The position numbers and the translations under genes are program-made. From Kineosporia sp. R_H_3 (GTDB lineage Bacteria > Actinomycetota > Actinomycetes > Actinomycetales > Kineosporiaceae), in the NCBI RefSeq assembly GCF_002198675.1, contig NZ_MWLL01000181.1, forward strand, positions 2,916 to 41,152: DNA of 38,237 nucleotides, given 5' to 3'. The notes beneath the pieces were generated by a model, which was given only the letters and a program-made list of their open reading frames with translations, did not search any database and had not been told where the DNA came from. Positions 12,982 to 23,530 of the stretch are shown one piece after another. Each line of letters begins with the position of its first letter. Position 1 is the first letter of the stretch.

Positions 12982-15003
12982 ATGGACGTCAAGAGAATTG
13001 TGCGCGGGCCCGTCATCTGGGTCATCGCGGCCGTCGTCGTCGTGCTCATCGGCTCCCAGGTGCTGCGGGGCGAGCAGTACGCGCCCGTCGACACCTCCGA
13101 CGCGATCCAGCTGATCCAGGACAAGCAGGTCAAGTCGGCCAAGGTCATCAACGGCGACCAGCGCGTCGAGCTCACGCTGACGAAGCCGTTCAAGGGCCAC
13201 GACGCCGTCTCGGCGCACTACGTCGACGCGCGCGGGGCCCAGATCGTCGACCTGCTCAACCAGAACAAGCCCGTCGAGGGCTTCACCGACGAGGTCCCCA
13301 AGAACTCCTGGCTGGTCAGCCTGCTCGCGACCTTCCTGCCGCTGCTGCTCATCCTCGGCCTCTTCTGGTTCATCATGGGCCAGATGCAGGGCGGGGGCTC
13401 CCGCGTCATGCAGTTCGGCAAGTCCAAGGCGAAGCTCGTCAGCAAGGACATGCCGAAGGTGACCTTCGCGGACGTCGCGGGCGCCGACGAGGCGGTCGAG
13501 GAGCTCCAGGAGATCAAGGAGTTCCTCGCCGAGCCGGGCAAGTTCCAGGCCGTCGGCGCGAAGATCCCCAAGGGCGTCCTGCTCTACGGCCAGCCCGGTA
13601 CCGGCAAGACGCTCCTCGCCCGGGCCGTCGCCGGCGAGGCGGGCGTGCCGTTCTACTCGATCTCCGGCTCGGACTTCGTCGAGATGTTCGTCGGTGTCGG
13701 TGCCAGCCGGGTCCGCGACCTCTTCGACCAGGCCAAGGCGAACGCCCCGGCCATCGTCTTCGTCGACGAGATCGACGCCGTCGGCCGGCACCGCGGCGCG
13801 GGGCTCGGCGGCGGCCACGACGAGCGCGAGCAGACCCTCAACCAGCTCCTCGTCGAGATGGACGGCTTCGACGTCAAGACGAACGTCATTCTCATCGCGG
13901 CGACGAACCGCCCCGACATCCTCGACCCCGCCCTGCTGCGCCCGGGCCGCTTCGACCGGCAGATCGCCGTCGACGCCCCGGACATGCAGGGCCGGCACCG
14001 GATCCTCCAGGTGCACGGCAAGGGCAAGCCGATGGCGCCGTCCGTCGACCTGCTCGCCGTGGCGCGCCGCACGCCGGGCTTCACCGGCGCCGACCTCGCG
14101 AACGTCCTCAACGAGGCCGCGCTGCTCACCGCCCGCGCCGGCGCCCGGGTCATCGACGACCAGGCCCTCGACGAGGCGATCGACCGCGTCGTGGCCGGGC
14201 CGCAGAAGCGCACCCGGATCATGAACGAGAAAGAGAAGAAGATCACCGCGTACCACGAGGGCGGGCACGCCCTCGTCGCGGCGGCCCTGCGGCACACCGA
14301 CCCGGTCACGAAGATCACGATCCTGCCGCGCGGCCGGGCCCTCGGCTACACGATGGTCATGCCGACCGACGACAAGTACTCCACGACGCGCAACGAGATG
14401 CTCGACCAGCTCGCGTACGCGCTCGGCGGCCGGGTCGCCGAGGAGCTCGTCTTCCACGACCCGACGACCGGGGCGAGCAACGACATCGAGAAGGCGACCG
14501 CGATCGCCCGCCGGATGGTCACCCAGTACGGCATGTCCGAGCGGGTCGGTGCGATCAAGCTCGGCCAGGAGCAGGGCGAGGTCTTCCTCGGCCGCGACTA
14601 CGGGCACCAGCGGGACTACTCCGAAGAGGTCGCGAGCGTCGTCGACGAGGAGGTCCGCCGGTTCATCGAGTCGGCGCACGACGAGGCCTGGGAGGCGCTC
14701 GTCGAGAACCGCCACATCCTCGACGAGCTCGTCATCGCGCTCTTCGAGAAGGAGACGCTCAACGCCGCCGAGATCGCCGAGATCTTCACCGGCGTCGTCA
14801 AGCGGCCCGAGCGCCCGGTGTGGCTGTCGAGCGACCGCCGCGCGGTCTCCGACATCCCGCCGGTCCCGACGCCCGCCGAGCGTGCGGCGTCCAACGGCAA
14901 CGGCACGGCGCACGCCGCGTCGCCGGCCGGTGCCCCGGGCGGGGTCGCCTTCGACGGCGGTGTCTCCTTCGACGCCGACCCCGAGCACGGGGGCCTGCGC
15001 TGA
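12982..15003 (+). CDS. ftsH: ATP-dependent zinc metalloprotease FtsH
   Basis: A 673-residue membrane-anchored AAA+ protease that extracts and degrades membrane and regulatory proteins. Transmembrane helices lie at about 10-28 and 110-132, with a short extracytoplasmic loop between. The AAA domain follows with Walker A at 203-210 and Walker B IVFVDEID (D262-E263). The second-region-of-homology segment is [20 protein letters not shown], and the zinc site is H425-EGGH. HEGGH in place of HEAGH is usual in actinobacteria, but the Walker A reads GQPGTGKT where nearly all FtsH have GPPGTGKT. The start fits the conserved MDVKR opening, although the AGGAGG site (about 12951) is unusually far upstream. 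The tail after about residue 610 is variable Ala/Gly-rich. folE follows within 8 nt. Confidence 0.97.
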
Positions 15004-15639: not shown

Positions 15640-16593
15640 TCAGCCCCGGTCGAGAACGGCACCCGCCGCCTGCGCGTCGCACACGAGGACGTCGACGAGC
15701 CGCCCCCGGAGCGCCCCGTGCACCGGGTCGGCCTTGTCCGCCCCGACGGCGATCCCCACGACCGTCGGGATCGCGGCGATCTCCGCGAGCGTGAGCCCGA
15801 GGACGCGGTCGTCGACCGGCCCGCGGACCGGCGCCCCGGTCGCGTCGAAGTAGCGGCCGGCGATGTTCCCCACCGGGCCCGAGGCCCAGAACTCCTGTCG
15901 CTCGCGGGCCGACGCGTCGACCGCGCCGAGGATCGCCGCCGACGACCCGGCGACGACGCTGCCGATCCCGACGAGCGCGAGGTCCGCGCCCCGCGCCGTG
16001 GTGAGCGCCTCGACGATGGCCGGTTCGGCGGTCATCGCCCGGCGCGCCTCCAGGGTCGCGAAGCCGGCCGGCGCGTGGAAGTAGCGGTACGTCGCGCCGA
16101 GCCGGGTCGCGAACTCGCGGACCAGCTCCTGGCTCGTCACGAACGACGCGCGCCCGGAGACCCCGCCGACGAGCTGGACGACCTCGGTCGACGACATCAC
16201 CGTCGGGGTCACCGCCGCCACGACGGCCTGCAGGCCCTCGCCCCACGACATCGCGATCGTCATGCCGTCCCTGAGCTGCTCGCGCAGCCAGGTCCAGGCG
16301 AGCTCGCCGACGAGGTCGACGGAGCGCACCCCGACCTCGTGGACGTGGCTCGCGACGACCGCGGCCGTGAGCCCGAACCGCTCGACGAGCGCGCGCTCGA
16401 GCGTGAGGTCGCGCCGGACCCGCTCGTGGATCCGGATCTCGACGATGCCGCGCTCCTGGGCGGCGGTGAGCATCCGGGAGACGTTCGAGCGGCTCGTGCC
16501 GAGCAGGCCCGCGATCTGCGCCTGCGAACGGTTCTCCCGGTAGTAGAGCTTCGCGACCTGGATCAGAGAGGCCTCGTCGCGGGGCGAGCTCAC
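15640..16593 (-). CDS. SorC/DeoR-type sugar-binding transcriptional regulator
   Basis: A 317-residue regulator. The N-terminal helix-turn-helix (about residues 8-48: ASLIQVAKLYYRENRSQAQI, GTSRSNVSRMLTAA) is followed by the SorC effector domain with GVRSVDLVGELAWTWLREQL and MSWGEGLQAVVAAV. ADLALVGIGSV and the C-terminal GIAVGADKADPVHGALRG are also present; the family binds phosphorylated sugars and controls sugar uptake or catabolism. The GTG at 16593 is chosen because GGGAGG lies 6 nt upstream; the GTG at 16611 lacks this. No sugar genes adjoin it. It is convergent with folE and divergent from the SulP gene, which is therefore a candidate target (inference). Confidence 0.88.
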   Translation of the reverse strand: MSSPRDEASLIQVAKLYYRENRSQAQIAGLLGTSRSNVSRMLTAAQERGIVEIRIHERVRRDLTLERALVERFGLTAAVVASHVHEVGVRSVDLVGELAWTWLREQLRDGMTIAMSWGEGLQAVVAAVTPTVMSSTEVVQLVGGVSGRASFVTSQELVREFATRLGATYRYFHAPAGFATLEARRAMTAEPAIVEALTTARGADLALVGIGSVVAGSSAAILGAVDASARERQEFWASGPVGNIAGRYFDATGAPVRGPVDDRVLGLTLAEIAAIPTVVGIAVGADKADPVHGALRGRLVDVLVCDAQAAGAVLDRG

Positions 16594-16706
16594 GCGGGAC
16601 CTCCCGGGCACGGCGTCGTCGGCGCCGCGCGGGCCGCGTCGGCGGACCCCATTCTCGCGCCCGGACCGCCGCTGCGGGCGCGACGTCCCGTCACCCGGGG
16701 TGTCCG

Positions 16707-18614
16707 GTGCTGCACACTCCTGGGGTGGGCGTCGGGCTGAACACGGGGTGGATGCGCCGTTACCGGCGCACGAACCTGCGCGCCGACCTGACGGCGGGGC
16801 TCGTCGTCGCGGCGCTCGCGGTGCCGCAGGCGCTCGGCTACGCCGTCGTCGCGCACGTCCCCGTCGAGGTCGGGCTCTACACCCTGCCGCCGGCGCTGCT
16901 CGCGTACGCCCTCTTCGGGTCCTCGAGGCTGCTCGTCGTCGGGCCGGTGTCCACGGTGAGCGTCCTGTCCGGCTCGCTCGTCGCCACGCTCGCCGGTGGC
17001 GACACCGCGCGCGCCGTCGAGCTCACGAGCTCGCTGGCCGTCGTCGCCGGGATCGTCCTCGTCGCCGGCGGGCTGCTCCGGGTCGGCTGGGTCGCGGAGT
17101 TCCTCAGCGAGCCGATCCTCTCCGGGTTCGTCACCGGCCTCGTCGTCCTCATCGTCGTCGGCGAGATCCCGGGCCTGCTCGGGCTCGGCACCCCGCAGGG
17201 CAACGTCCTGAGCCGGATCGGTGCGCTCGTCGGCGGCCTGCCGGACGCGAACTGGGTCACCGCGCTCGTCGGCGCGCTCGCCCTCGCCCTCCTCTTCGGC
17301 GGCAGCCGGGTCGACCCCCGGGTGCCGTGGAGCCTCGTCGTCCTCGTCGCCGGGGTCGTCGTCGCCCGGACGGCGGGGCTCGAGGCGCACGGCGTCGCAC
17401 TCATCGGCCACGTCCCCTCCGGCCTGCACCTGCCGCAGCTGCCGATCCCGGCGGCCGACGACGTGCCCGCCCTCGTCACCGGCGGCCTCGCGATCGGCGC
17501 GGTCGGTCTCGCCGAAGGGCTCGCCGCGGCCCGGCTGTTCGCCGCCCGGTCCGGTGCCCACGTCGACGCCGACACCGAGCTGCTCGCGCACGGTGCCGCC
17601 GACCTCGCGGCCGGGCTCGCCGGCGGGATGGGCGTCGCCGGCAGCCTGTCGAAGACCGCGGCCGCGGCCCGGGCCGGCGCCCGGACCCAGATGGCCGGCC
17701 TCGTCGCCGCCGCGGCCGTCGTCTCGGTCCTGCTCTTCCTCGCCCCGCTCGTGTCCGCGCTGCCGAAGGTCGTCCTGTCCGCGATCGTCGTGCACGCGGT
17801 CTGGGGCCTGGCCCGGGTGCGGGCCTTCGCCCGGTACCGGGCGATCCGGCGCAACGACGTCACCGCCGCGACGGTGGCCCTCGTCGGGGTCCTCGCGCTG
17901 GGCCCGCTCGCCGGGCTCGGGGTCGCCGTCGCGCAGTCGATCCTGGGCCTGGTCTACCGCTCGATCCAGGTGACGATCGACGAGATGGGCAAGGTCCAGG
18001 GCGAGAAGGCGGCCTGGGGCGCCGTCGCCCGGCACCCGGACCGCAAGACGGTGGACGGCGTCCTCGTGCTGCGGCTGTCGGGCCCGATGTTCTGGGCGAA
18101 CGCGGCGACCGTCGTCGACGAGATCGCGCTCGCCGTCGCCGACCACCCCGGCACCCGCGTGCTCATCCTCGACCTCGAGGCGACGAACCAGCTCGACACG
18201 ACGACCGTGGACCGGCTCGCGGCGCTGCTCACCCGGCTGCGCTCCGAGGGCGTCGACCTCTACCTGGTCCGGGTCTTCGAGGACGTCCGCACGGTGATGA
18301 CCCGCTCGGGGTTCATGGCCGACCTCGACCCGACGGGCCGGATGTGGCACTCGATCTCCGCCGGCGTCCGGGCGGCCCGCAAGGCGATCCGCGCGGCCGG
18401 GCCGGACGGCGTCCCGGTGCCGGTGCTCGAGGGGCCGTACCCGGCCGCGGGGACCGTCGCCGAGGTGCCGGCGGAGGAGGAGGACGAGGTCCTGGAGGCG
18501 GTGGGCGCGGACGGCGCCTCCGCGGACACCGACGAGGAACGGATCGCCGCCCGCCACGAGCACGAGCCGGCCCCCGGTCGGCGACCGCGACCGCGGCCCC
18601 GAGCCGGTGCGTGA
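16707..18614 (+). CDS. SulP family inorganic anion transporter with STAS domain
   Basis: A 635-residue membrane protein. Residues about 25-420 form a 10-14-helix transporter domain opening with the family signature LRADLTAGLVVAALAVPQAL GYA and containing the STVSVLSG and AATLAGG regions. A cytoplasmic STAS domain spans about 450-560 (GVLVLRLSGPMFWANA, then ILDLEATNQLDTTTVDRL). An acidic/Pro-Arg tail follows. SulP proteins carry sulfate, bicarbonate, chloride or dicarboxylates; the substrate is not predictable here. In-frame starts at 16725 (GTG) and 16752 (ATG) are possible, the ATG lying just before the conserved part. The gene is divergent from the SorC regulator. Confidence 0.88.
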   Translation: MLHTPGVGVGLNTGWMRRYRRTNLRADLTAGLVVAALAVPQALGYAVVAHVPVEVGLYTLPPALLAYALFGSSRLLVVGPVSTVSVLSGSLVATLAGGDTARAVELTSSLAVVAGIVLVAGGLLRVGWVAEFLSEPILSGFVTGLVVLIVVGEIPGLLGLGTPQGNVLSRIGALVGGLPDANWVTALVGALALALLFGGSRVDPRVPWSLVVLVAGVVVARTAGLEAHGVALIGHVPSGLHLPQLPIPAADDVPALVTGGLAIGAVGLAEGLAAARLFAARSGAHVDADTELLAHGAADLAAGLAGGMGVAGSLSKTAAAARAGARTQMAGLVAAAAVVSVLLFLAPLVSALPKVVLSAIVVHAVWGLARVRAFARYRAIRRNDVTAATVALVGVLALGPLAGLGVAVAQSILGLVYRSIQVTIDEMGKVQGEKAAWGAVARHPDRKTVDGVLVLRLSGPMFWANAATVVDEIALAVADHPGTRVLILDLEATNQLDTTTVDRLAALLTRLRSEGVDLYLVRVFEDVRTVMTRSGFMADLDPTGRMWHSISAGVRAARKAIRAAGPDGVPVPVLEGPYPAAGTVAEVPAEEEDEVLEAVGADGASADTDEERIAARHEHEPAPGRRPRPRPRAGA

Positions 18615-18853: not shown

Positions 18854-18869
18854 ACGGCCGTACGGCCGT
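18854..18869. promoter_or_regulatory. 16-nt palindrome, tandem ACGGCCGT
   Basis: ACGGCCGTACGGCCGT is a perfect 16-nt palindrome made of two 8-nt palindromes, 102 nt before the fusion-gene start. A related inverted repeat with the same half-site lies 44 bp downstream, so the two may bind one regulator. GC-rich palindromes of this length can arise by chance. Confidence 0.45.
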
Positions 18870-18971: not shown

Positions 18972-21035
18972 ATGGTCCTTCCGCACGCACGCACCGCCCC
19001 TGCCGACGAGGCGCCCGTCGAGGTCGTCGCCTACTTCGGCGACGACCCGCTGCGCGCCTACCAGCTGCGCCAGTGGCTCCCCGTCCTCGAGCAGCTCGAC
19101 CGGGTCCACCGCGTCCTGCTCGTCCTGCGGGACCCGGCCACCGCCTGCGCCGTCGCGTCCCAGACCCGGCTGCCGCACGTCCTCGTGCCGAGCTTCGGGG
19201 AGCTCACCGAGCTCTACCGGCGGGTCGAGGCCAAGGTCGCGGTCTACGTCAACAACTCGGCGAAGAACTTCCAGTCGCTCGTCGCCCGGTCGATGGTCCA
19301 CGTCCACGTGAACCACGGCGAGAGCGACAAGATCTGCATGGTGAGCAACCAGGTCAAGGCCTACGACCGGGTGTTCGTCGCCGGCGAGGCCGCCGTCGCG
19401 CGGCACCGCGCCGCCCTCATCGGCTTCGACCTCGACCGGCTCGTCCCCGTGGGCCGGCCGCAGCTCGACCTCGTGCCGCCGACGACGCTGCCGTCCAGCG
19501 GGCGCCGCACGGTGCTCTACGCCCCCACCTGGGAGGGCGAGGAGCCGTCGAACTGCTACACGAGCGTCGACGTCATGGGGCCGCGGATCGTCGCGGAGGC
19601 GCTGCGGGTGCCGCAGGTCCGCCTCGTCTACAAGCCGCACCCCCGGGTCGTCTCCAGCACGACGCCGCTCGTCGTCGCGGCGCACCAGGAGATCCTCGAC
19701 CTGCTCGACGCCGCGAACGCCGTCGACCCGGACGCCGGGCACGTCTACGCGCCGGCGGCCGACATCCTCGGCGTCTTCGGCGCCTGCGACCTCATGGTCA
19801 CCGACGTGTCGTCGGTGGGTCTGGACTTCCTCTACCTGCACGTCGGCAAGCCGCTGCTCGTCGCCGACCGGTTCGCCGACCCGACCCGGCTGCGCGAGGC
19901 GGCGCCGGTGAGCCGCTGCGCGGACGTCGTCGTCCCGGCGACCCTCGACGGCCTGGCCGGGCTCATCGACTCCCGGCTCACGCACGACCGGCACGCCGCG
20001 GCCCGGCTGCAGATGCGCCGGCACTACTTCGGCGACCGGCCGGTCGGGCAGAGCACCCGCGACTTCGTGACCCGGATCGGCGAGATGGTCGCCCTGCGGG
20101 ACCGGCAGGTCCGCGAGCGCGCCGAGTCCCCGGACGCCGTGGCGGCGGCCGCGCTCGGTGCACCCGGCTCGTTCGGCGACCCGCGGCTGGACGAGGCGTG
20201 GACGAGCGGGGACACGCCGCGGACGACGCCGGCGCACCCCGCCGGCGCCGCCGGTCCCACGGACCAGGACCCGTCGGCCCAGGGGGAGCCCGCCGCGCCC
20301 GGGCGCCGGCCGGCCGCCGTCCAGGCCGTCGTGCTCGCGGCAGGGATGGGGACCCGGCTCGGGATGCCCTTCCCGAAGCCGCTCACGCCGCTCTCCGACG
20401 GGCGCAGCATCATCGCCCAGCAGCTGGACAACCTCGGTGAGACGTTCGGCACGGCCCTGCGCACCACGGTCGTCGTCGGGTTCCGCCCCGACCTCGTCAT
20501 GGGTGCGCTCGCCCCCGAGCACCCCGTGAGCTTCGTGCTCAACGAGCGCTACGAGCGGACGAACACGTCGAAGTCCCTGCTCGCGGCGCTGCGCGCCTCC
20601 GGCCCGGGCGGCGTCCTGTGGCTCAACGGCGACGTCGTCTTCGACGGCCGGCTCCTCGGGAAGGTCGCCCCGCTGGTCGCTGCGGAGCAGAGCTTCGTCT
20701 GCGTCAACGACGCGGCATGCGGCGACGAGGAGGTCAAGTACCGGGTCGACGACTACGGTTTTGTTACCGTGTTGTCGAAGAGCGTTACCGACGGTCTCGG
20801 CGAGGCTGTCGGGATCAACTACATCGCGTCGCAGGACAAGGCGGCGCTCGTCGAGCACCTCGAGGCCTGCGCGGACCAGGACTACTTCGAGCGCGGGATC
20901 GAGACCGCGATCGAGAAGGGTCTGAAGGTTCGCCCGGTCGACATCTCGGAGTACTTCGCCGTAGAGGTCGACTTCACGGCAGACCTGGAGCGTGCGAACC
21001 AGGAGGTGAGCAGGACCGTCACGTCCGCCGCGTAG
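18972..21035 (+). CDS. Fusion: TagB/TagF-like glycerophosphotransferase + LicC-like cytidylyltransferase
   Basis: A 687-residue two-domain protein. Residues about 20-400 resemble CDP-glycerol:polyglycerophosphate glycerophosphotransferases: VNHGESDK, VLYAPTWEGEE, LVYKPHPR, and ADILGVFGACDLMVTDVSS followed by KPLLV. A Pro/Ala/Gln linker (about 405-448) leads to a nucleotidyltransferase domain. That domain holds the AVVLAAGMGTRLGMPFPKPL NTP loop, NERYERTNTSKSLLAAL and LWLNGDVVFD, typical of NTP_transf_3/LicC-type phosphocholine or alditol-phosphate cytidylyltransferases. Such a fusion could make CDP-activated phospho-alditol or phosphocholine and transfer it to a cell-surface glycan or lipid. 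No membrane segment is visible. A GDPD gene follows 51 nt later. The acceptor and head group are unknown. Confidence 0.8.
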   Translation: MVLPHARTAPADEAPVEVVAYFGDDPLRAYQLRQWLPVLEQLDRVHRVLLVLRDPATACAVASQTRLPHVLVPSFGELTELYRRVEAKVAVYVNNSAKNFQSLVARSMVHVHVNHGESDKICMVSNQVKAYDRVFVAGEAAVARHRAALIGFDLDRLVPVGRPQLDLVPPTTLPSSGRRTVLYAPTWEGEEPSNCYTSVDVMGPRIVAEALRVPQVRLVYKPHPRVVSSTTPLVVAAHQEILDLLDAANAVDPDAGHVYAPAADILGVFGACDLMVTDVSSVGLDFLYLHVGKPLLVADRFADPTRLREAAPVSRCADVVVPATLDGLAGLIDSRLTHDRHAAARLQMRRHYFGDRPVGQSTRDFVTRIGEMVALRDRQVRERAESPDAVAAAALGAPGSFGDPRLDEAWTSGDTPRTTPAHPAGAAGPTDQDPSAQGEPAAPGRRPAAVQAVVLAAGMGTRLGMPFPKPLTPLSDGRSIIAQQLDNLGETFGTALRTTVVVGFRPDLVMGALAPEHPVSFVLNERYERTNTSKSLLAALRASGPGGVLWLNGDVVFDGRLLGKVAPLVAAEQSFVCVNDAACGDEEVKYRVDDYGFVTVLSKSVTDGLGEAVGINYIASQDKAALVEHLEACADQDYFERGIETAIEKGLKVRPVDISEYFAVEVDFTADLERANQEVSRTVTSAA

Positions 21036-21086
21036 GCACCCGGAGCCGCTCCGGTCCCCCTGCGCGGGCCGGAAGGGCGGCGCTCT

Positions 21087-21878
21087 ATGAGTGCCAACGG
21101 TGTCTTCGGCCCGAGCACAGCGTTGCTCGGCCACCGCGGCTGCGGCCGCGGCCTCGTCGAGGGGTTCCGCGAGAACTCGCTCGACTCCTTCCTCGCTGCC
21201 GTCTCCTTCGGGGTCGACTGGCTCGAGGTGGACGTCCGCCGCACGCGGGACGACGTCCTGGTCGTGGTCCACGACCCGGCCCGGGACGACGGCGTGTTCT
21301 GGGCCGACCTCACCGGCGCCGAGGCGGTCGCGAGCGGTCTCATGACGCTCGAGGGACTCATGGAGGCCCTCCCCGAGGGGATCGGCGTCGACTTCGACGT
21401 CAAGACCTCCCTCGAGGACGCCCCGCTCGACCGCTCCCGGACGACGATGGGCCTGCTCGGGCCGGTGCTGCGCCGCGAGTCCTCGCGCCGTCCGGTGCTC
21501 GTGACGTCCTTCGACGCCGGTGCCCTGGAGATCTGCCACGAGCAGGCCCCGGGCGTCGCCCGCGGGCTGCTCACGTGGGTCGAGTTCCCCGTCGGGCACG
21601 CGGTCGCCTCGGCGGCGCACCTCGGCGTCCAGGTGCTCGCCCTCCACGGCGGGTCGCTCAAGCCCAACCGGCGCGAGCCCGAGCACCTGCAGCGGCCGCT
21701 GCACAAGGTGGTGGACGTCGCGCACGCGAGCGGGCTGGAGCTCATGGCCTGGTGCCCCGGGGTCGCCTTCGCCCGCCGGCTCGTCGCGGCCGGCGTCGAC
21801 GCCCTGTGCGTCAACGACGTCCCGACGGTCGTCCGCGAGCTGCGCGAGCGCGAGGTCGGGACGGCTCTGTCGGCCTGA
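21087..21878 (+). CDS. Glycerophosphodiester phosphodiesterase (GDPD family)
   Basis: A 263-residue TIM-barrel hydrolase that splits glycerophosphodiesters to sn-glycerol-3-phosphate and an alcohol. Catalytic and metal residues are visible: H16 in GHRG, E29-N30, E47/D49 in LEVDVRR, and the second catalytic histidine H62 in VVHDP. Later segments VDFDVKTS, LVTSFDAG and VNDVPTV also fit. There is no signal peptide, so it probably acts in the cytoplasm. GGAAGGG (21071-21077) is a good ribosome site. It lies 51 nt after the fusion gene and probably forms an operon with it. It could recycle released or misdirected glycerophosphate units, or modify the product (inference). Confidence 0.9.
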   Translation: MSANGVFGPSTALLGHRGCGRGLVEGFRENSLDSFLAAVSFGVDWLEVDVRRTRDDVLVVVHDPARDDGVFWADLTGAEAVASGLMTLEGLMEALPEGIGVDFDVKTSLEDAPLDRSRTTMGLLGPVLRRESSRRPVLVTSFDAGALEICHEQAPGVARGLLTWVEFPVGHAVASAAHLGVQVLALHGGSLKPNRREPEHLQRPLHKVVDVAHASGLELMAWCPGVAFARRLVAAGVDALCVNDVPTVVRELREREVGTALSA

Positions 21879-21925: not shown

Positions 21926-21962
21926 GCAAGGCCCCTCGCAGTATGCGTGCGAGGGGCCTTGC
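21926..21962. terminator. 15-bp perfect hairpin, terminator of the fusion-GDPD operon
   Basis: GCAAGGCCCCTCGCA (21926-21940) pairs perfectly with TGCGAGGGGCCTTGC (21948-21962) around a 7-nt loop, 47 nt past the GDPD stop. There is no T-tract. It is the strongest hairpin I found in the window. Confidence 0.85.
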
Positions 21963-22603: not shown

Positions 22604-23530
22604 GTGAGTGACGTCCTCGGGCTGCCGAAGCACCTCGCCGATCTCGGCAGGTGCCTCGTCATGGGCGTCGTCAACGTCACCCCGGACTCCTTCAGCGACG
22701 GCGGGCTCTGGTTCGAGCCCGAGGACGCCGTGGCCCACGGGCTCGCGCTCGTGCGCGCCGGCGCCGACGTCCTCGACGTCGGCGGCGAGTCGACGCGCCC
22801 CGGGGCACCCCGGATCCCGCTCGCGGAGGAGATGCGGCGCGTGCTGCCCGTCGTCCGCGGGCTGCGGGCCGAGGGGGCGGTCGTCAGCATCGACACGATG
22901 CGGGCCGAGGTCGCCGACGCCGCGCTCGCCGTGGGCGCCCACATCGTCAACGACGTGAGCGGGGGCCTGGCCGACCCGACGATGGCGAGCCTCGTCGCGG
23001 ACGCCCGGGTGCCGTTCGTCGCGATGCACTGGCGCGGCCAGAGCGACCGGATGGAGCAGCTCACGCACTACGACGACGTCGTGGACGACGTCGTCGCCGA
23101 GCTCACCGCCCGGCTCGACGCGCTCGTCACGGCCGGTGTCGACCCGCGCCAGGTGGTCCTCGACCCGGGCCTGGGCTTCGCCAAGAAGCTGCACCACAAC
23201 TGGACCCTGCTCGCGCACCTGGACGCGCTGGCGGCCATCGGGCGGCCGCTGCTCGTGGGGGCGTCGCGCAAGCGGTTCCTCGGTGCGCTCGTCGCCGGGC
23301 CGGACGGCGCACCCGCGCCGGTCGAGGAGCGGGACGCCGCCACCGCCGCGACGAGCACGCTCGCCGCCGCGGCCGGGGCGTGGGGGGTCAGGGTGCACGA
23401 GGTGCGCCCGTCGGTCGACGCGGTCAAGGTGGTCGCCGCGGTCGACGCCGCCCGGAGGGCCCGACCGGGCCCGCCCGAGCGGGCCGGCGTGACATCACGG
23501 GCCACCGTGTCGCAACAGGAGTGGGGATGA
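22604..23530 (+). CDS. folP: Dihydropteroate synthase
   Basis: A 308-residue cytoplasmic enzyme joining p-aminobenzoate to dihydropterin pyrophosphate, the sulfonamide target. Signatures are VMGVVNVTPDSFSDGG near the N-terminus, DVGGESTRPGA, the core INDVSGG-like HIVNDVSGGL, LDPGLGFAKKLHHNW, and the C-terminal GASRKRFLG. The C-terminal extension (ARRARPGPPERAG onward) is variable. The GTG start is set by the TAGGGT box 6 nt upstream and the usual N-terminus. Its stop overlaps the folB start by four bases (ATGA), indicating translational coupling. Confidence 0.96.
   Translation: MSDVLGLPKHLADLGRCLVMGVVNVTPDSFSDGGLWFEPEDAVAHGLALVRAGADVLDVGGESTRPGAPRIPLAEEMRRVLPVVRGLRAEGAVVSIDTMRAEVADAALAVGAHIVNDVSGGLADPTMASLVADARVPFVAMHWRGQSDRMEQLTHYDDVVDDVVAELTARLDALVTAGVDPRQVVLDPGLGFAKKLHHNWTLLAHLDALAAIGRPLLVGASRKRFLGALVAGPDGAPAPVEERDAATAATSTLAAAAGAWGVRVHEVRPSVDAVKVVAAVDAARRARPGPPERAGVTSRATVSQQEWG

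Follow-up and report, generated by a model that had tools for sequence, protein, structure and literature searches.

This report concerns a two-gene cassette in a window of 38,237 nucleotides (the whole stretch of DNA analysed) from Kineosporia sp. R_H_3, an actinobacterium whose genome comprises 7.26 Mb in 270 contigs. Both genes are on the forward strand. The first open reading frame (ORF, 18972-21035) starts with ATG and encodes 687 amino acids, and this single frame spans two enzyme halves. We call GPT the N-terminal half, or gene, of the PF04464 type. CyT is the cytidylyltransferase-like half, or gene, of the PF12804 type. The second ORF (21087-21878, 263 amino acids, ATG start) begins 51 nt after the fusion and encodes a glycerophosphodiester phosphodiesterase (GDPD). 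With moderate confidence, we read the two genes as a cassette for the synthesis and use of CDP-glycerol. Its parts are the following.

18972..20201, + strand: GPT, a PF04464-type GT-B transferase (about residues 1-410), assigned by the PF04464 score, the GT-B model and the TagF/TarL fold matches.
20202..20303, + strand: low-complexity linker, Ala/Pro-rich by eye, between the aligned domains, with model confidence below 50 from residue 396.
20304..21035, + strand: CyT, a PF12804-type cytidylyltransferase-like domain, including the stop codon, assigned by the PF12804 score, the model, the PntC/LicC folds and the invariant R18, K25 and D110.
21087..21878, + strand: GDPD family, glycerophosphodiester phosphodiesterase, assigned by the PF03009 score and by H16, E47, D49 and H62.

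The G+C content by codon position in the fusion and GDPD frames (third position 0.97 and 0.95, second position 0.47 and 0.50) indicates that both fit real genes. The closest named relative over the fusion is Kineosporia sp. A_224, with 98% identity. The fusion frame is open through both halves in all four genomes that match the full query end to end (G000, which is the window's own, G001, G002 and G007), which rules out a sequencing frameshift. A chance layout was ruled out as well, by this open frame together with the neighbourhoods and the CyT tree described below.

A first interpretation made from the letters of the window (the sequence-only reading) had described a TagB/TagF-like transferase fused to a LicC-like nucleotidyltransferase and followed by a GDPD gene. 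Both families were named correctly, and so was the downstream gene. PF04464 matches fusion residues 176-296 with 31.4 bits (cut-off 22.1), a match confined to the C-terminal portion of the profile (190-290 of 367). PF12804 matches residues 452-579 with 57.1 bits (cut-off 27). For the second ORF, PF03009 gives 71.8 bits (cut-off 23.6). The whole fusion gave no match among the PDB sequences; the profiles of the separate halves did. The domain searches and structure predictions that this reading had suggested return a GT-B fold for GPT and a PntC/LicC-type fold for CyT.

The GPT model has a mean pLDDT of 88.7. In the fold comparison it matches TagF with Z 21.1 (3.6 Å over 314), a capsule multienzyme with 21.2, TarL with 19.9 and UDP-GlcNAc 2-epimerases with up to 22.4. 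TagF and TarL are thus tied with other GT-B enzymes. The fold alone identifies a GT-B enzyme, and the predicted TagB/TagF-like character comes from the PF04464 match. GPT, with about 410 residues, aligns to TagF residues 351-724 of 729 only, and we do not call it a TagF polymerase for this reason. It has nothing that corresponds to the additional N-terminal part of TagF, ahead of the GT-B domain. H115 and H223 of GPT are invariant in 35 rows, and we compared them with what we take to be the two catalytic histidines of TagF. Only H223 lined up with the PF04464 polymerases of the genome, in a weak hhalign alignment (probability 85) where the first histidine motif was out of register. The genome encodes three further PF04464 proteins, each of which also carries a GT2 domain. 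These are likelier polymerases than GPT, which probably performs a single addition or priming instead of long polymerisation.

The CyT model has a mean pLDDT of 90.8. Its best fold is PntC (Z 28.0, 2.4 Å over 233 residues), followed by a GlmU (26.1), LicC (25.6) and the inositol-1-phosphate enzyme of 4mnd (24.9). Among solved structures, PntC is likewise the top match of the CyT profile (E 6.4e-9, positions 4-226 of 228), ahead of GlmU, LicC and the inositol enzyme. R18, K25 and D110 are invariant in 37 rows (the alignment excludes L018, a wrong-strand row). They pair, by motif and not by structure-based alignment, with R16, K26 and D112, which PMC12275187 gives as active-site residues of the Thermotoga inositol enzyme. 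At the sequence level, CyT fits the COG1213-class cytidylyltransferases (LicC, PntC, IPCT and CpgD), as judged by PF12804 and these active-site residues.

The window's genome has two further CyT relatives, so that the cassette is present but is not the only gene set of its kind, given also the GT2-PF04464 proteins. One relative (L106, contig C53, 6313-11173) is a separate CyT gene that shares 57% identity with the fused half and lies divergent from a CDP-alcohol phosphotransferase gene. The other (L107, contig C180, 2347-7015) is more distant, with 33% identity. It overlaps or follows a DUF5941/CDP-alcohol phosphotransferase region, which is another possible CDP-alcohol pathway in this genome.

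Enzymes of the GDPD family release glycerol-3-phosphate from glycerophosphodiesters. H16, E47, D49 and H62 are invariant in 15 rows, and we take these conserved His, Glu, Asp and His residues to be catalytic. By eye, the protein has no evident signal or export sequence, which makes trimming outside the cell unlikely. The sequence-only reading had proposed trimming or recycling; an intracellular supply or clean-up fits better than trimming outside.

The distribution of these genes was examined in the best 80 of 399 named loci. GPT is found in 51 of them, CyT in 77 and both in 48. These 48 loci comprise three fusions and 45 with separate frames (in L043 the second gene is on the other strand). 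The true fusion is seen in four genomes only, from the window's genus and one related genus. It is a local event of one genus and a relative. The layout itself recurs. In Pseudonocardiaceae, GPT adjoins CyT in nine loci, and GDPD is next in eight of them (in L047 none was found at the threshold). The GPT-CyT-GDPD module is conserved and the observation is real. GDPD homologues do accompany the transferase, a link whose absence would have spoken against the first interpretation: GDPD adjoins GPT in 11 of the 80 named loci and in all six genomes of a genus of the window's family (g3).

A CyT tree of 73 rows was made by a quick method with a midpoint root, leaving out copies (L001-L004, L120) and identical or short sequences. 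The four fused rows and nine operon rows form one group (SH-aLRT 95), and the fused rows alone have a support of 91. L047 is labelled operon in this tree despite no GDPD being found there. Five loci titled Bifidobacterium breve metagenome-assembled genomes or Rubrivirga sp. (L048, L056, L061, L071 and L079) group with Nanopelagicales rows, and their names are probably wrong.

In 20 Nanopelagicales-type loci, the GPT and CyT pair occurs with a LytR-CpsA-Psr protein. These loci also hold glycosyltransferases, a GT2-PF04464 protein and CDP-alcohol phosphotransferases, with an ABC-2 permease in one set (the names of the neighbour clusters come from scans of one or two members each). These neighbours place the GPT and CyT pair in envelope-polymer loci. 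Four loci (L112, L118, L119 and L169) have two GPT paralogues each, of about 235-330 and 510-550 bits.

Wall teichoic acid synthesis in Bacillus and Staphylococcus uses TagD with TagB/TagF. TagD makes CDP-glycerol from CTP and glycerol-3-phosphate, and a PF04464 GT-B transferase spends it; TagD is unrelated to the COG1213 class, according to PMC12275187. Our claim for CyT is the same job done by a different family: the half matches PF12804, not PF01467, the family of TagD. If CyT makes CDP-glycerol, it is expected to stand in for TagD. The three PF01467 genes of the window's genome are NadD, CoaD and RibF, and TIGR01518 (glycerol-3-phosphate cytidylyltransferase) has no match in this genome. 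The absence of TagD was checked gene by gene in the window's genome only, and by PF01467 matches in G001, G002 and G007; the last has one match of 63 bits without an assigned identity. In genus g3, no CyT relative was found at E 0.001 in any of the six genomes. All six have a PF01467 gene whose best NCBIfam match is TIGR01518, with 123-130 bits (cut-off 165.4).

We then counted both genes in a class sample of 216 genomes. The lines were our own choice: 480 bits for GPT (the next score is 414.5) and 100 bits for a TagD-like gene. GPT reaches at least 480 bits in 18 genomes, of which seven have CyT, nine have a TagD-like gene, none has both and two have neither. With GPT of at least 300 bits there are 29 genomes (16 CyT, 10 TagD-like, 0 both and 3 neither). 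The nominal P for no overlap among GPT genomes is 0.001 and 1.4e-5, respectively, ignoring kinship. A CyT or TagD-like gene is present in 44 of the 216 genomes. Any GPT match occurs in 70 genomes, and the 41 weaker ones, outside the count, include none with CyT and four with a TagD-like gene above 100 bits. The genome searches scored only some of the initial candidates (up to 20; nine in the GPT search and 13 in the CyT search), so that misses are possible.

In the two genomes of the 480-bit set with neither CyT nor TagD, a divergent protein of the PF12804 type adjoins GPT and GDPD; it scores 77 and 79 bits against the CyT profile (Pfam was run on L169). L169 further encodes a GT2-PF04464 protein (336.6 bits) as well as an ABC ATPase with an ABC-2 permease. 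In 3/3 genomes of family f7, a second GPT has a TagD-like gene next to it, with a CDP-alcohol phosphotransferase nearby; in G018 the TagD-like gene exceeds the TIGR01518 cut-off. Elsewhere, neighbourhoods of this kind contain CyT.

Gene linkage and the distribution relative to TagD give good support to the activation and transfer suggested by the first interpretation. In the proposed pathway, GDPD would cleave cytosolic glycerophosphodiesters to glycerol-3-phosphate. The CyT half would join CTP and glycerol-3-phosphate into CDP-glycerol, replacing the unrelated TagD. The GPT half would move glycerol-phosphate from CDP-glycerol onto an envelope glycan in the cytosol, and the fusion would keep the intermediate local. 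The steps differ in strength. CyT is very probably a cytidylyltransferase, and GPT is very likely to use its product. Glycerol-3-phosphate is the probable substrate of CyT. The envelope glycan is a putative acceptor, which the fused enzyme may prime or decorate. Supply of glycerol-3-phosphate inside the cell is our first reading of GDPD, held at about an even chance, with clean-up as its near rival.

Several points weigh against a CDP-glycerol pathway that displaced TagD. Kinship is uncorrected in the count: eight of the nine TagD genomes belong to one genus, and nine of the 16 CyT genomes of the 300-bit set to one family. Taken over all 216 genomes, the absence of overlap is no surprise (2.2 expected, P 0.09). 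Most of the actinobacterial TagD-like genes fall below the TIGR01518 cut-off of 165.4, which is exceeded in 1/216 genomes. At E 1e-15, four CyT genomes (G016, G048, G095 and G224) also match TIGR01518 with 60-67 bits, two of them within the 29-genome set. These matches may be HldE-type genes. CyT without GPT adjoins CDP-alcohol phosphotransferases in many loci, which would suit another CDP-alcohol too. TagA (PF03808) was not found in the window's genome, so a standard linkage-unit acceptor is unsupported. Finally, CDP-glycerol synthesis by CyT is a prediction. All 37 CyT rows match the GlmU profiles of NCBIfam weakly, below the cut-offs, and among the NCBIfam matches listed no row reaches an equivalog cut-off. 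GlmU folds score between PntC and LicC. The sequence profiles do not settle the nucleotide and substrate of CyT.

There are three rival explanations. CyT could activate another phospho-alcohol (inositol-1-phosphate, ribitol-5-phosphate, 2- or 3-phosphoglycerate, or phosphocholine), and GPT would then transfer that group. Solved relatives act on aminoethylphosphonate, phosphocholine and inositol-1-phosphate, and the inositol enzyme is fused to a CDP-alcohol phosphotransferase in 4mnd, the kind of gene that adjoins GPT-less CyT. The GT-B fold matches of GPT include a CDP-ribitol enzyme, TarL. CpgD, of the COG1213 class, uses phosphoglycerate (PMC12275187). Nevertheless, TagD-like genes replace CyT in other GPT genomes, and both kinds of gene occur near CDP-alcohol phosphotransferases, which makes another phospho-alcohol rather unlikely. 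Glycerol phosphate is more probable than phosphocholine. Fusion of a sugar-1-phosphate nucleotidylyltransferase to a GT-B glycosyltransferase, the case that the sequence-only reading had named against itself, would agree with the weak GlmU matches of 37/37 CyT rows and with the UDP-GlcNAc 2-epimerases and glycosyltransferases that tie with TagF. However, GPT passes the PF04464 cut-off, PntC is the best match of CyT both in profile and in fold, and the displacement of TagD would be left unexplained. We consider this fusion type very improbable.

The third explanation retains activation and transfer as proposed, with a GDPD that clears a by-product or mis-made glycerophosphodiester, or is merely co-transcribed. 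GDPD stays with GPT when CyT is elsewhere (G063) or when TagD is used (g3), which links it to GPT. In the class sample, GDPD is beside GPT in 5/18 genomes and four of seven families (f1, f22, f26 and f27), and no GDPD was found there in the other 13 genomes (f46, f41 and f7) with a narrow profile, built from 15 close relatives, that may miss others. On the other side, 18 loci with CyT but no GPT (among L068-L105, cluster 25; one member, L071, was scanned) have a different gene of the GDPD family nearby. This ties GDPD to the activation step too, and we hold a non-feeding GDPD as possible but doubtful.

Returning to CDP-glycerol, we tentatively suggest that a second, unrelated class of CDP-glycerol synthase (PF12804/COG1213) replaced TagD in several actinobacterial families. 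In this genus it would be fused to GPT, with a dedicated GDPD feeding it from the turnover of membrane lipids. One operon would then encode a lipid-fed route that puts glycerol-phosphate on an envelope glycan. If true, actinobacteria that seem unable to make CDP-glycerol for lack of TagD can make it through an enzyme so far known only as an NTP-transferase-domain protein, and predictions of envelope polymers in environmental actinobacteria would change. Neither a PF12804/COG1213 CDP-glycerol synthase nor this fusion was found in the open-access literature searched.

We regard the fusion as a variation on the TagD-TagB/F scheme and not as a new type of system. It shares the proposed order of making and then spending CDP-glycerol with a PF04464 GT-B transferase. 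In contrast, its activating domain is PF12804 and not PF01467 and is joined to the transferase in one protein, a GDPD gene is linked and TagA was not found. With PntC, LicC and the inositol-1-phosphate cytidylyltransferases, CyT shares the fold and the active-site Arg, Lys and Asp, but its partner is a PF04464 transferase, and there is no PEP mutase for a phosphonate. CpgD from Caulobacter makes CDP-glycerate (PMC12275187). It is likewise a COG1213-class enzyme that activates a three-carbon phosphate, in an envelope-lipid pathway. However, CpgD stands alone, uses phosphoglycerate and belongs to a sphingolipid pathway. The Archaeoglobus IPCT-DIPPS protein (4mnd) also joins a cytidylyltransferase to an enzyme that uses a CDP-alcohol, although that partner is an integral-membrane CDP-alcohol transferase and not a GT-B enzyme.

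PF12804 domains are also fused to PEP mutase, and two were shown to act on aminoethylphosphonate (PMC6697681). A phosphonate route was ruled out here, because PEP mutase was not found in the window's genome, and a phosphonate head group is unlikely. Two strong PF13714 matches score 28.5 and 34.9 bits against the PEP mutase equivalog cut-off of 319.55. They do not carry EDKXXXXXNS, the PEP mutase motif given in the same paper, and a third, weak match resembles PanB by eye. A CDP-ribitol route through an IspD/TarI-type enzyme is a possible alternative. PF01128, of this type, has four matches in the genome, three of them over the cut-off. Two IspD-family genes lie 11 kb apart on contig C258 (L129, 2601-3281 and 13932-14609); their best match is ispD, and both are under the equivalog cut-off.

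Two sequence elements border the cassette.

18854..18869, no strand: 16-bp perfect palindrome, about 100 nt 5' of the start codon, from the palindrome search (chance about 0.016 for the region); candidate operator, unproven.
21926..21962, + strand: terminator-like hairpin without a T-run, with a 15-bp perfect stem and a folding z-score of -4.1.

The palindromic control region of the sequence-only reading exists as the palindrome ACGGCCGTACGGCCGT. However, when the region was shuffled 2000 times, 1.6% of the shuffles contained a palindrome of that length, and the window has five more of at least 16 bp elsewhere, so its control role is unproven. The strong terminator has its counterpart in the hairpin, which has a 7-nt loop. 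It has no T-run and was for this reason absent from the T-tract terminator scan, which listed nothing. Rfam gave no match in the window, and the sigma-70 promoter scan gave none. Exact copies of the palindrome and the hairpin occur in L026 and L027, which are near-identical genomes; no copy of either was found in L028.

The cassette lies between ftsH (12982-15003) and folP (22604-23530). By eye, a folE-like frame ends at about 15620, and folB- and folK-like frames come after folP. Folate genes are indeed around the cassette, as first described, but this setting is not kept with it: in the related genus, the cassette sits elsewhere. Between folE and the cassette (15640-18614) lie a SorC/DeoR-type sugar-binding regulator and a SulP permease. 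Only L026 and L027 preserve this order, and a relative of the regulator (57%) is on contig C258.

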